Assembly (NCBI RefSeq): GCF_018138145.1
Contig: NZ_CP073104.1
Span: forward strand, 4,965,001 to 5,029,000
Direction: 5' to 3'
Length of the DNA stretch: 64,000 nucleotides
From: Pseudomonas sp. SCA2728.1_7
GTDB taxonomy: Bacteria > Pseudomonadota > Gammaproteobacteria > Pseudomonadales > Pseudomonadaceae
This document shows positions 37,906-50,297 of the stretch, in pieces (the stretch's first letter is position 1; every line of letters starts with the position of its first letter). The notes below the pieces were generated by a model. That model was not told the DNA's origin, searched no databases, and saw nothing but the letters and a program-made list of their open reading frames with translations. The translations under genes were made by a program, and so were the position numbers.

Positions 37906-38357
37906 CAATCTGTCCTTGGTTGTAACTATTGCGGCAGATTATCTATCCAGGGTTAAAAATTGCGCAAGTGGTGTTTATTTCAGCAATCTTCGCAATCCTC
38001 TGTCGCCGCCTCAGGCCTATTCTTATCACCAGAATCACTGCTCGGTAACACAGTCCACGCGGCCCGCCCTATCCGGCCTGCCGCGGCCGCCACCCCCACC
38101 GGGGTTGTGCCGGCCCCCGAGCTGCACACTGTCCAGAAGACGGCGTGAGGTGAGCCGACGTCAAAAGCGTCGAGCCAGGACGAAGTTCTCTAGAAGGGAG
38201 GCCGACGGGTCTCCCTTTTTTCTTGCCTGCGATTTCATGCCCTAGCGCTTAATAAATAAGTTGCGCGACTGATAACCTGTTGCAGAACCCGGTGTGTGTA
38301 TTCCCGGTCTTAGTGACAAGTCCTCTTACATTTGCAGGCCCCGCAGTGAGAAAAAGC
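37906..38357 (+). other. long non-coding region: putative sRNA or leader ending at a terminator
   Basis: 450 bp without a convincing gene. It contains very G+C-rich DNA (about 38060-38150) with small hairpins: CCCCACCGGGG near 38095 and CGACGTCAAAAGCGTCG near 38156. A clear Rho-independent terminator follows at 38194-38221. Transcription on the + strand must therefore start somewhere between the lrp gene and about 38100 and end before the next gene, as expected for a small RNA or an attenuated leader. No match to a known sRNA was recognised. Confidence 0.4.
38194..38222 (+). terminator. Rho-independent terminator of an unidentified + strand transcript
   Basis: Seven-base stem AAGGGAG (38194-38200) with CTCCCTT (38211-38217), ten-base loop, followed by a run of Ts. 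No protein-coding gene on the + strand ends just before it. Confidence 0.82.
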
Positions 38358-47880: not shown

Positions 47881-47972
47881 CCTGTAGGAGTGAGCCTGCT
47901 CGCGATAGCGGTGTGTCAGTCAATATTTGTTTCGACTGATACTCCGCTATCGCGAGCAGGCTCACTCCTACA
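47881..47972. repeat. REPIN (GCTCACTCCTACA type) at the left edge of the accessory segment
   Basis: Inverted arms CCTGTAGGAGTGAGCCTGCT and complement. Its central part (GGTGTGTCAGTCAATATTTG...) is collinear with the REPIN at the right edge of the insertion, so it forms part of the flanking direct repeat. Confidence 0.9.
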
Positions 47973-48067
47973 TTGGATTTGTGGTGATCCGGACTATTTG
48001 CCGTTGCTTTCGATGTGGCCGAGCGGCACGCGTTTTTCGATTGCGCTCGACAGCACAATCGAGGTCT
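47895..48067. repeat. left flanking direct repeat (REPIN plus lrp 3' end)
   Basis: Collinear with 50127-50297 over about 172 bp. The terminal 72 bp (47996-48067 versus 50226-50297) match at 68 positions, including 43 identical bases from GGCACGCGTTTTTCGATTGC onward. The REPIN half is less similar but keeps the same order and spacing to within two bases. Confidence 0.78.
47994..48067 (-). pseudogene. displaced 3' end of an Lrp/AsnC gene
   Basis: In one frame on the minus strand this fragment reads TSIVLSSAIEKRVPLGHIES followed by NGK and a TAG stop. It differs from the end of the intact Lrp (50221-50676) by only two residues in this stretch (H for Q and S for G) and a shorter last codon set. 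Nothing of the gene upstream of this fragment remains. It comes from a diverged allele of the neighbouring gene. Confidence 0.82.
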
Positions 48068-48098: not shown

Positions 48099-49103
48099 TC
48101 AGGCCAGACTGGCGAATTGTTGACTATCAACCTTGTCCACCGGCATAAATCCGGTTGTTTTCTTGAAATTCATCGTGTGTACAAAGTTCTTCATCGAATC
48201 GGATGGATCGATGCTTTGCATGTTGAGTTTGAATAGCGTCTCGCGTGCAAGCGCGACGCTGAGGATCGGCTGATCTTCGAGATGGCCGGTTGCGGAGTTG
48301 AGAAGAGAGTCAACCGCCGTAACAATGACGAGTCGTTCGGGAAGAATACTCAGCAGTTCCTGGCCTACGCGCAAAACACAGCTGGATACGTAGTCCTGTA
48401 ACAGCTCATTGAATTTGCTGATCGGCATTTTTTTAACTGACAGTTTTCCACTCTGTAGTAGTGACTTGATTTCTTGAGGGATCACTTTGATGCCGTGTAC
48501 CGAGAGCGTGCATTCGAGAATGCCAGTTTCGGCAACCGAGAAATTAATTGACGTGCCCAAGTGCGAAATATCCGTGAACGGATCCACTCGCAGGACTGCA
48601 TCAATTTTCGATTGGGCATTACCAGCGAGTATTCCCAACGCAAGCTCGTGATCTACTTTCCAATCCTGATACTGCGCTTCCCACTCGCTTAATTCTTGAG
48701 CCAACTGCTGCGTATCTTTGGCAACCGCTGCTTGAATGGCTAATTCAATTTTTTTGCGTTGCCTGGCCTCAAGTTTCAAGGTGCGCGCAAAGAAACCAGG
48801 CTTGTAACTGGATTGTTTTGCCCTTGCCTGGTTTTCATGGGTATTGAGCGCTTCGGGTTTGATCGGTGGCAGTTGATTTGCGAACTCACTCCAGTCGATT
48901 ATCTCGCCACAATCTTTATGCACGGAAAGCAACAAATCTATGTGGTTTTCATAGACCTCAACTTCGTACGCTGCCTGCTCAAGAGCCTCCATTTTTGCGA
49001 ATTCTTTTTGACGTACCTGCAATTCGCGTTGGCGCCGCTTCGAGTTGCGCTCAGCTCTCCTGGCTGACGCCTGCATCGAGCGTAGGGTTCCCTTCCAAGT
49101 CAT
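48099..49103 (-). CDS. hypothetical protein with N-terminal coiled coil (accessory)
   Basis: 334-aa soluble protein; I do not recognise a family. Residues about 8-60 are strongly basic and coiled-coil-like (RRAERNSKRRQRELQVRQ). Two further helical charged stretches (about 95-150) follow, and then a compact domain from about 185 to 320 with VDPFTDISHLGTSINFSV, SLLQSGKLSVKKMPISKFNE, and ATGHLEDQPILSVAL. No signal peptide, membrane helix or known nuclease motif. AGAGGA eight bases before the ATG supports the start. Its codon use is visibly A/T-richer than the neighbours, pointing to transfer. A role in defence is possible from context only. Confidence 0.8.
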   Translation of the reverse strand: MTWKGTLRSMQASARRAERNSKRRQRELQVRQKEFAKMEALEQAAYEVEVYENHIDLLLSVHKDCGEIIDWSEFANQLPPIKPEALNTHENQARAKQSSYKPGFFARTLKLEARQRKKIELAIQAAVAKDTQQLAQELSEWEAQYQDWKVDHELALGILAGNAQSKIDAVLRVDPFTDISHLGTSINFSVAETGILECTLSVHGIKVIPQEIKSLLQSGKLSVKKMPISKFNELLQDYVSSCVLRVGQELLSILPERLVIVTAVDSLLNSATGHLEDQPILSVALARETLFKLNMQSIDPSDSMKNFVHTMNFKKTTGFMPVDKVDSQQFASLA

Positions 49104-49365
49104 TTCTGAGTTCCTCTCATTTGTAACGGGGCTTTATTTTTTTAGAAAGGCCGGTTCTCGGCATAGTCAGGACATTAGCTGCTGCGTTGGGTGGCGTCCA
49201 TCGACCAAAAGTCTTGTGTAATCGGGTTGTTTAGTTGCGTGTATGGGGTGGCGAAGAATCCTACTGAAGTTTAGGGGGAATCCGTCTTGAGCTCAGATAA
49301 CCCCGCCGTTAACCTCGGTGCGTCGCTGCAAATTCAGCGATCGGGACTGCAAGCCCGCCGATAGT

Positions 49366-49395
49366 TTGTTAGGAGACCACTGGCAAACCTATAAT
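49366..49395 (+). promoter_or_regulatory. sigma70 promoter of the BRO-N gene
   Basis: TTGTTA (49366-49371) and a perfect TATAAT (49390-49395) with an 18-base spacer. The predicted start near 49402 falls on a small hairpin (GTCGCT/AGCGAC, 49399-49416), directly before the large structure. Confidence 0.65.
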
Positions 49396-49427
49396 CGCGT
49401 CGCTTCAATTAGCGACTATCGATTTAT

Positions 49428-49501
49428 GGTAGCTGTGTGCGGGAGACCTTCGGGTCTGCCGAGGTCTCCTACTCGGTCTTGCAGACCCGCGCACAGCTGC
49501 C
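49428..49501 (+). other. structured multi-branch RNA-like element in the leader of the BRO-N gene
   Basis: A closing stem pairs 49428-49443 with 49486-49501: all 16 pairs form in RNA, two of them G-U. Within it are AGACC-TTCG-GGTCT (49444-49457, a C(UUCG)G tetraloop), CCGAG/CTCGG (49459-49463 with 49471-49475) and TCT/AGA at the 3' side. The start codon is 53 bases downstream with AGGAG at 49543-49547. I recall similar sequences (GTAGCTGTGTGCGGGAGACC...) upstream of small accessory genes in other pseudomonads, so this is probably a dispersed family; its function is unknown to me. Confidence 0.75.
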
Positions 49502-49554
49502 ACCCGTCATCTGCAAGTGATGCGGGCAGCTCCGATGTTCTTAGGAGATTTGTC

Positions 49555-50067
49555 ATGGTCAAAGTCGTCCCCACACACTCAGAAAATTTCGGTTCAGCAA
49601 TCACTCATGAGCCGCTCATAAAGCCCCAATTGTTCATCCGTCATCACATTCAACTGCGGGCTACTGTGCAACATGCGGAGGCTTGGTTCTGTGCCCGAGA
49701 CATCGGTCGTCTCATGGGGCTGGAAATCAATGCGCGGCAAGTGCTCAAGCTGGATGAGGATCAGCGGCGGATGATGCGTCTGTCAGGTAATGATGGCGCT
49801 CGAGAGTTTTTGATGTTGAGCGAGTCAGGGGTTTACGCAATGCTGGTTTATCACTATTCCCCAGAGAACCGTCATCTGCGTCGTTGGCTGACTCACGAGA
49901 TTGTGCCAATGCTTCGTCAGAGTTCGAAGTCAGTTCCAGACCCACATTTGCGCTTGATCATGTGTGCCGGGGAAACGTTGAGGCTTCTGCATTGGCGTAA
50001 TGAGCCATGGATACGCATGCGAGACATGCCGTACATGTTGACTCAGGAAGGGGCCAGCTACAGATGA
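49555..50067 (+). CDS. BRO-N domain protein (phage antirepressor-like)
   Basis: 170-aa protein. The BRO-N fold occupies about residues 25-125: LRATVQHAEAWFCARDIGRLMGL, then LDEDQRRMMRL, LMLSESGVYAMLVY and HLRRWLTHEIVPMLR. No C-terminal KilA or ANT domain follows, only a 45-residue tail. BRO-N proteins bind DNA and serve as antirepressors in phages; here no phage gene surrounds it. The ATG at 49555 has AGGAG seven bases upstream. Its leader contains the large structured element, which may control translation. Confidence 0.85.
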   Translation: MVKVVPTHSENFGSAITHEPLIKPQLFIRHHIQLRATVQHAEAWFCARDIGRLMGLEINARQVLKLDEDQRRMMRLSGNDGAREFLMLSESGVYAMLVYHYSPENRHLRRWLTHEIVPMLRQSSKSVPDPHLRLIMCAGETLRLLHWRNEPWIRMRDMPYMLTQEGASYR

Positions 50068-50125
50068 AGACCGCTAGTTGTTTCAGGATGGAAAGTTGAT
50101 TTTTGATCGGGTGAATGAGCTATGA

Positions 50126-50206
50126 ACCTGCTCGCGATGACGGTGTGTCAGCCAAAATTTGTATCGACTGATACACCGCTTTCGCGAGCAGGCTCGCTCC
50201 CACAGG
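50126..50206. repeat. REPIN with degenerate left arm at the right edge of the accessory segment
   Basis: The right arm CTTTCGCGAGCAGGCTCGCT is intact. The left arm is decayed (AACCTGCTCGCGATGACGG, with the GTGGGAGCGAG part replaced by GAGCTATG). Its centre resembles that of the REPIN at 47881-47972. Confidence 0.75.
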
Positions 50207-50297
50207 GGGCATCATCGTCCTCAGGATTTGCCGTTGCCTTCGATCTGGCCTAACGGCACGCGTTTTTCGATTGCGCTCGACAGCACAATCGAGGTCT
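50127..50297. repeat. right flanking direct repeat (REPIN plus lrp 3' end)
   Basis: Counterpart of 47895-48067; its last 72 bp are the genuine 3' end of the intact lrp gene. Recombination between the two copies would remove about 2.2 kb and restore a single REPIN-lrp junction. Confidence 0.78.

Follow-up and report, generated by a model that had tools for sequence, protein, structure and literature searches.

A probable chromosomal C4 antisense switch before a BRO-N gene of Pseudomonas, found in many copies with copy-specific keys

In the window, the whole 64,000-nt stretch of Pseudomonas sp. SCA2728.1_7 DNA analysed here, a structured leader precedes a BRO-N gene. Judged from its sequence, the leader RNA is a member of a described class, the C4 antisense RNAs. 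We consider it highly probable that the locus is a chromosomal C4 antisense switch standing before the BRO-N gene, and that such switches have been multiplied in Pseudomonas with copy-specific keys. At the sequence level, this reading is supported by the family membership, the paired changes in the stems, the matches of the two antisense segments (a' and b') to targets of their own locus, the copy number, and the distinct keys.

The Rfam model of C4 antisense RNA (RF01695) matches positions 49422-49507 (+) over its full length (1-87) with 71.3 bits, against a gathering score of 45 (E 6.9e-12), whereas the preliminary description of this DNA had held that no described class fits the structure. 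The c4-a1b1 motif (RF03163) matches upstream of it, at 49309-49361 (+), with 50.2 bits against a gathering score of 46.7. Both matches thus exceed their gathering scores and stand in the order expected for a C4 system, RF03163 and then RF01695. In the same a1b1 stretch, isrK (RF01394) remains below its gathering score (28.8 vs 50 bits). The hairpins of a1 and b1 (49309-49388) belong to the C4 system and were missed by the preliminary description, whose start lies about 60 bases inside the system. Elsewhere in the window, the Pseudomonas sRNA P24 (RF00629) is found at 37960-38216 (+) with 241.5 bits, and sub-threshold Rfam matches to snoU61 and MIR5274 were taken for chance. The parts of the leader are as follows.

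49309-49361 (+), c4-a1b1 motif with the upstream target hairpins (RF03163)
49322-49340 (+), first stem of the a1b1 motif, hairpin GTCGCTG..CAGCGA
49347-49353 (+), a1 target CTGCAAG, in the loop of hairpin 49342-49357 (CGGG/CCCG), complement of a' at 49478-49484
49370-49378 (+), b1 target TAGGAGACC, in the loop of hairpin 49364-49388, 9-bp complement of b' at 49463-49471
49366-49395 (+), promoter-like TTGTTA-18-TATAAT, its -35 box overlapping b1
49399-49416 (+), hairpin GTCGCT/AGCGAC immediately 5' of C4, outside the Rfam C4 model
49422-49507 (+), C4 antisense RNA (RF01695)
49427-49443 (+), 5' arm of the C4 closing stem P1, pairing with 49486-49502 (17 pairs, two of them G-U)
49444-49457 (+), C4 hairpin P2, with the UUCG tetraloop at 49449-49452
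49459-49476 (+), C4 hairpin P3, presenting b' (stem 49459-49462/49473-49476)
49463-49471 (+), b' GGTCTCCTA, antisense to both b1 and b2, the latter in the Shine-Dalgarno region
49478-49484 (+), a' CTTGCAG, antisense to a1 and a2
49510-49517 (+), a2 target TCTGCAAG, within hairpin 49508-49522, complementary over 8 bp to a' plus one further base
49542-49548 (+), b2 target TAGGAGA, the Shine-Dalgarno region, 7-bp complement of b'
49555-50067 (+), BRO-N gene, 170 aa, antirepressor-like (Pfam Bro-N, PHROG anti-repressor)

The loops of small hairpins hold a1, b1 and a2, and the unextended a' (49478-49484) is complementary to the part of a2 at 49511-49517. For segments of the same transcript, the duplex of a'/b' is calculated at -47.2 kcal/mol with a1/b1 and at -29.5 kcal/mol with a2/b2. 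The 192-nt stretch covered by the preliminary description folds at -87.1 kcal/mol, compared with -59.6 +/- 3.8 kcal/mol for 200 shuffles (z -7.2), and 0/200 of these are as good. The predicted minimum-energy fold of the window C4 departs from the family structure: b' is hidden in it, its strand being paired to the 5' side of the UUCG hairpin. Several elements described earlier were found again, namely a promoter-like site before the leader (one site found, 0.7 expected by chance), a small hairpin at its start (GTCGCT..AGCGAC), and AGGAG (49543-49547) followed by the BRO-N start at 49555. The closing stem does contain two G-U pairs, with 17 pairs rather than the 16 proposed. Three enclosed stems had been counted; the UUCG hairpin and the second stem are confirmed, and the third is presumably GGUC-UUGCA-GACC at 49475-49487, which competes with the second stem and the closing stem and lies outside the family consensus. 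At other loci, single-sequence folds often show a hairpin just 5' of C4, as an uncounted impression without a control.

A promoter scan of 49100-50200 shows 49366-49395 as the only promoter-like site; since shuffles give 0.7 such sites on average, the site is weak evidence by itself. The TATAAT box is present in all nine C4-bearing BRO-N leaders, that of the window included. Because the site overlaps b1, its transcript would comprise C4 and the gene and lack a1 and b1, and a1-b1 would therefore need a promoter further up. The scan of 49100-50200 found no such upstream promoter, and no terminator-like site was found in the same interval.

We next examined the stems in the 45 C4s of the window genome. 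Changes on both sides occur in 15 of the 26 stem pairs (P1 9/17, P2 5/5, P3 1/4), and 97.2% of the alignment cells pair, compared with 35-43% in slid-partner controls. The covariation score is 0.402 versus 0.234 in shuffles, and 0/500 shuffles reach any of the five covariation measures. These results support selection at the RNA level on the C4 leaders, in agreement with what had been suspected from the two G-U positions. In addition, GG at the 5' end of the stem and CC[A/T]CC at its 3' end are found in 45/45 C4s, and these stem-end sequences would suit RNase P.

All 45 C4 matches in the 6.78-Mb window genome exceed the cut-off. We assigned one gene to each C4 within 900 nt by distance and strand, and found behind them 32 DUF6124 genes, at least five DUF3077 genes (five entered the assignment, six are counted in the genome) and two BRO-N genes, the second C4-BRO-N locus lying at 4396015. 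Among the matches listed, 39 of the 45 C4s have one of these three families behind them and six have none. Similar leaders before other small Pseudomonas genes, mentioned in the preliminary description, thus exist, mostly before DUF6124. Seen from the genes, 32/36 DUF6124 genes and 2/4 BRO-N genes of this genome have their own C4, and one of the four DUF6124 genes without it (358911) stands second behind C05. The cargo of C37 is a truncated DUF6124-like frame outside the 32, and some copies are neighbours (C09/C10, C12-C14, C19-C21). The DUF6124 proteins of this genome have about 120 aa; the one that was modelled is helical (mean pLDDT 67.5), and its model has no PDB match at E <= 0.001.

In the genus, a C4 match is present in 54/59 genomes (53 over the cut-off), with 1031 matches at E <= 0.001 over the 59 genomes. 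The top count per genome is 54 at E <= 0.001 (genome G049), where a fuller search gives 55 matches, 52 over and three under the cut-off. DUF6124 is found in 47/59 and DUF3077 in 45/59 of these genomes. The number of C4s rises with the number of cargo genes over the 59 genomes (Spearman 0.89 for DUF6124, 0.93 for DUF6124+DUF3077), and the five genomes without C4 are also without DUF6124. Some genomes are rich in C4s and poor in DUF6124, such as G009 with 38 C4s versus two DUF6124 genes, and other small cargo proteins are present there. A phylum survey found a C4 match in 42/299 genomes and DUF6124 in 5/299, four of them over the cut-off and all four in this genus. A DUF6124-protein scan of named genomes was also performed; the best 80 of at least 500 relatives correspond to 80 loci in 32 genomes, and in 80/80 a same-strand C4 exceeding the cut-off precedes the start by 46-56 nt. 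As these 80 loci were ranked by similarity to a single DUF6124 alignment, they are biased towards close relatives and are not a random sample. As further cargo arrangements, a 52-54-aa ORF directly follows C4 at L010, L011 and L068, the position of icd in P1, and is followed by a DUF3077 gene at L010 and L068. In genome G353 (L062-L065, L067), C4 stands before a small helix-turn-helix-like protein, which we take to resemble the Ner/Nlp regulators.

The pairing of each C4 with its own targets was then compared with permuted pairings, using z scores of longest-run complementarity. For the 45 C4s of the window genome, z is 17.0 for a'/a2 and 18.5 for b'/b2, and 12.1 for a'/a1 and 7.2 for b'/b1 at the upstream targets; the own mean lies above the best of 10000 permutations for all four target types. 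The longest-run scores replaced whole-stretch duplex energies, by which the own target ranks first in only 21/45 (upstream) and 7/45 (downstream), a poor discrimination that we ascribe to the G+C-rich P3 stem pairing with everything. With run scores, the own target outranks all others in 35/45 C4s, while the other ten (C07, C11, C25, C27, C28, C31, C34, C35, C44, and C45) match another locus as well or better. Because of these ten, and because 31 of the 990 C4 pairs have an a' 8-mer in common, the sequences make cross-talk likely for some C4s.

The same correspondence is seen in further sets. Among the nine C4-bearing BRO-N loci, including the window, a' does not vary, and where b' differs, b1 and b2 differ with it; permutations of keys against targets are as good in 5e-5 (b1) and 2e-4 (b2) of cases (n=9). 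The 31 distinct keys from the 80 named DUF6124 loci give z 8.9 (a2) and 15.0 (b2), and z 9.3 (a') and 6.6 (b') against the upstream stretch. A run of at least 6 bp is found for a'/a2 in 80/80 of these loci and for b'/b2 in 64/80, the run being shorter in 16/80. In genomes G009 and G049, sampled mostly at their higher-scoring C4s plus neighbours on the same stretch, z for b2 is 13.2 (31 of 38 C4s) and 10.7 (20 of 55 C4s). b1 follows b' in three of four sets (the 45 own loci, G049, and the BRO-N loci); the exception is G009, where b'/b1 pairing is at chance level (z 0.5, 31/38 C4s). Several G009 C4s (on C21, C58, C17, C14, C67, and C35) have no matching downstream target. At the G009 loci L085, L078, L076 and L083, neighbouring C4s adjoin each other or lie up to about 580 bases apart, several of them without a matching downstream target. 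Neighbouring C4s of G009 could possibly be C4-only arrays acting in trans.

Three other genera were sampled through genomes G151 (9/10 C4s), G211 (6/6) and G353 (6/6). Against the upstream stretch, z is 4.6, 3.4 and 3.0 for a' and 5.3, 2.4 and 4.1 for b', respectively, and the match to the ribosome site is weak or absent in all three (best z 2.2). We therefore claim the double-target layout for Pseudomonas only. At L053-L061 of G151, the upstream match of a' and b' reaches up to 10-11 bases, the ribosome site is mostly unmatched, and the C4s stand before genes of a different small protein family.

The b' loops of the 45 C4s of the window genome are all different, even where the proteins are 97% identical. 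None of the 25 paralogue pairs with protein identity >=0.80 shares a key (0/25); their mean identity is 0.89 in the coding part, 0.81 in the RNA scaffold and 0.51 in the loop, the last value being close to the 0.50 of all pairs. In the named genomes, the loop is shared by 0/91 within-genome pairs, and by 0/32 of those at protein identity >=0.8. At the same protein identity, 91/857 between-genome pairs share the loop and 766/857 differ in key, and in 37/110 syntenic between-genome pairs both the loop and a' are identical. The within-genome value (0/32) differs from 91/857 at p 0.067 only and from the syntenic 37/110 at p 2e-5, the pairs not being independent. One syntenic pair (L172/L171) has identical proteins and different loops. 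From these comparisons we infer that the key differences may reflect selection against cross-silencing, that is, insulation; alternatively, a fast neutral turnover of keys together with copying of the coding parts would explain them. We see about even chances for the wider proposal that Pseudomonas chromosomes carry mutually insulated, self-encoded antisense switches, in which one phage-type scaffold exists in up to about 50 copies per genome, each with a private two-part key matching its own upstream and downstream targets. After duplication, the keys would be rewritten, sometimes at one site with hardly any change in the protein, and dozens of nearly identical genes would thereby remain under separate control.

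The BRO-N protein of the window matches Pfam Bro-N (42.6 bits, cut-off 25.6) and the PHROG anti-repressor Ant (E 1.5e-12); its structure model (mean pLDDT 75.7) has no PDB match at E <= 0.001. C4/BRO-N sits between an exonuclease (RNase_T) gene and an lrp/asnC-type gene. An lrp survey gave 33 matches in 59 genomes, and at the 30 loci compared, the window being one of them, BRO-N is present in six, the exonuclease gene and lrp occur without BRO-N in 21, and three are not judgeable. At L121-L123, where lrp is most similar, the site is empty and about 135-145 bases separate the exonuclease gene from lrp; among close protein relatives, P0004 (90%) carries the name P. koreensis. Imperfect direct repeats at 47891-48067 and 50123-50297 (88% and 94% by piece), comprising a REP-like element and the lrp 3' end, bracket a 2.2-kb stretch with a 334-aa ORF, C4 and BRO-N. 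The ORF (48099-49103, -) matches phrog_38135 (E 3e-38), has no Pfam match, and accompanies C4/BRO-N in some, not all, relatives. The earlier idea that the structure is the recognition end of a mobile element was rejected for the RNA, because the changes in C4 keep the RNA pairing and neither the 334-aa ORF nor BRO-N has a recombinase match; a' and b', moreover, match the upstream targets and the ribosome site.

C4 is present at 9/12 BRO-N loci examined, the window included, and absent at L114, L116 and L117, so BRO-N can do without C4. All three retain an a1-like hairpin immediately upstream of the ribosome site. In one of the C4-less BRO-N genomes, a C4 that precedes a DUF6124 gene carries the same a', so silencing of its BRO-N in trans is conceivable from the sequence; in the two others, that 14-base stretch was not found. 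Several BRO-N relatives start with MIKVTPNPP, like DUF6124 proteins, and this common start suggests an exchange of leader and first codons between cargo genes. Homologues, covariation and linked genes, the absence of which had been named as speaking against the RNA, were thus all found, with the three C4-less BRO-N loci as the exception.

In the mechanism we propose, one leader combines the a1-b1 target hairpins with the C4 RNA and, over the BRO-N ribosome site, the second target a2-b2. C4 would be excised from it by RNase P together with other nucleases, and the free C4 would pair via a' with a2 and via b' with the Shine-Dalgarno region. Given this pairing, the gene would be silent whenever C4 has accumulated, and translation would occur only when C4 is absent, lagging or titrated. 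Relief might come from a new copy of the element, from a promoter burst, or from a1-b1 RNA acting as a sponge. a1-b1 would serve as a sponge or a feedback site, and the gene would be expressed only during a burst or in cells that have newly received the element. Since each copy has its own a'/b' key, the copies would largely not silence each other. The match of b' to the ribosome site points to regulation of BRO-N translation by its leader, as had been considered at the outset, and the other early suggestion, a structured sRNA that also carries a gene, comes close to the C4 arrangement.

The published systems are compared here as far as the accessible parts of the cited papers describe them. 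In P1/P7, RNase P processes C4, which blocks ribosome sites (PMC5320573), and in the family the b' loop partly covers the ribosome site while the a' loop gives specificity (PMC5320573). The window locus shares with P1/P7 C4 (RF01695, immI region; PMC5320573, PMC8198154) the three-stem fold, a' and b', the paired targets, an antirepressor-type gene downstream, and RNase P-like ends. Unlike P1/P7, the window C4 is chromosomal, has many copies per genome, and has other cargo among these copies; immI lies in a phage genome, whereas the window locus is flanked by the exonuclease and lrp/asnC-type genes, with the 334-aa ORF in between. In contrast to immI (c4-icd-ant), there is no icd-type ORF, with 47 nt between the C4 end (49507) and the BRO-N start (49555). 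Two family traits, RNase P cleavage to a ~77-nt RNA and repression of target translation in trans, appear here as the end signature alone (45/45) and as sequence complementarity alone, respectively. The c4-a1b1 motif (RF03163; Weinberg et al., 2010, PMC2864571) likewise has two hairpins with a1 in the second loop, and in the window it starts 113 nt ahead of C4; the accessible text of that paper only lists it as a motif, whereas here a1 follows each copy's a'.

The Group 1 C4-like sRNAs of Acinetobacter baumannii (PMC5320573) are likewise numerous in one chromosome, with variable a', and show RNase P-like processing in RNA-seq. Their targets were left open there (incoming phage or bacterial messages), whereas in Pseudomonas the predicted target is the ribosome site of the adjoining gene and cargo families can be named. 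In IsrK-orf45-AnrP of the Gifsy-1 prophage of Salmonella (PMC4825925), a leader RNA and a downstream complement likewise control an antirepressor, the translation of which is raised by IsrK in trans. IsrK is a terminated, activating sRNA, whereas the window leader has no terminator-like site; IsrK may act as a sponge, as proposed for a1-b1 RNA. The term 'C4 RNA' does not occur in the accessible text of the IsrK paper (PMC4825925). In Burkholderia cenocepacia, a single transcriptional unit comprises isrK and C4 (PMC4603805).

We also considered whether the resident C4 could be a relic of phage immunity that chiefly silences incoming phages' antirepressor messages with matching a2/b2, BRO-N being the left-over original target. 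C4 does so for P1/P7, BRO-N matches PHROG anti-repressors, distant BRO-N relatives (all <60% identity) are found in 464/50,697 phage records, and blastn finds DNA like the window C4 in four phage records, three of them of Pseudomonas phages. However, most of the cargo is not antirepressor (32 DUF6124 and at least five DUF3077 of 45), one DUF6124 query matches 1/50,697 phage records and one DUF3077 query none, and the flanking exonuclease and lrp genes are chromosomal, bar the 334-aa ORF with its PHROG match. We regard this explanation as unlikely.

A purely cis-acting leader, riboswitch- or thermosensor-like, might instead hide or expose its own ribosome site and release no free RNA. This would agree with the strong fold in cis (z -7.2) and with the ability of a' and b' to bind the a1/b1 and a2/b2 targets on their own transcript. 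However, the known members of the matched family act as free antisense RNAs, RNase P-like ends are present in 45/45 C4s, Acinetobacter C4 RNAs were detected by RNA-seq (PMC5320573), and Burkholderia C4 RNAs are listed from dRNA-seq (PMC4603805; accessible parts of both papers). A cis-only leader thus appears quite improbable to us.

The presence of a cis-encoded antisense over a small ORF, in many accessory copies with distinct keys, would also fit an RNA antitoxin of a type I-like pair that restrains harmful small cargo proteins and is kept by addiction. The shared leader argues against it, because loss of the locus would remove C4 and the message together. The toxins of type I pairs are short membrane peptides, unlike the ~120-aa DUF6124 proteins, of which the one modelled is helical, and 3/12 BRO-N loci and 4/36 DUF6124 genes have no C4 of their own. 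We consider an antitoxin role very improbable. Non-functional prophage debris spread by duplication is hardly credible: presence at the exonuclease-lrp site does differ between close relatives, and there are neighbouring copies (C09/C10, C12-C14, C19-C21) and a truncated cargo frame (C37), but the stem covariation and the keys co-varying with their targets point to selection, and three recognised gene families stand behind 39/45 C4s among the matches listed.

Many C4s in one genome were already reported for Acinetobacter in 2016, in the accessible text of PMC5320573. In the literature searched, which covered few subscription papers, we found no description of these loci, no link between C4 and DUF6124/DUF3077 and no mention of DUF6124, and the sole paper found on DUF3077 concerns furfural tolerance. 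If the proposed reading is true, the dozens of unexplained DUF6124/DUF3077 genes per Pseudomonas genome would become one regulated system with a testable control rule. The 1031 C4 matches in 59 genomes would then be a natural library of possibly orthogonal antisense-target pairs on one scaffold, which would be useful for the study of regulatory-RNA divergence after gene duplication and could supply parts for gene control in harmless pseudomonads.
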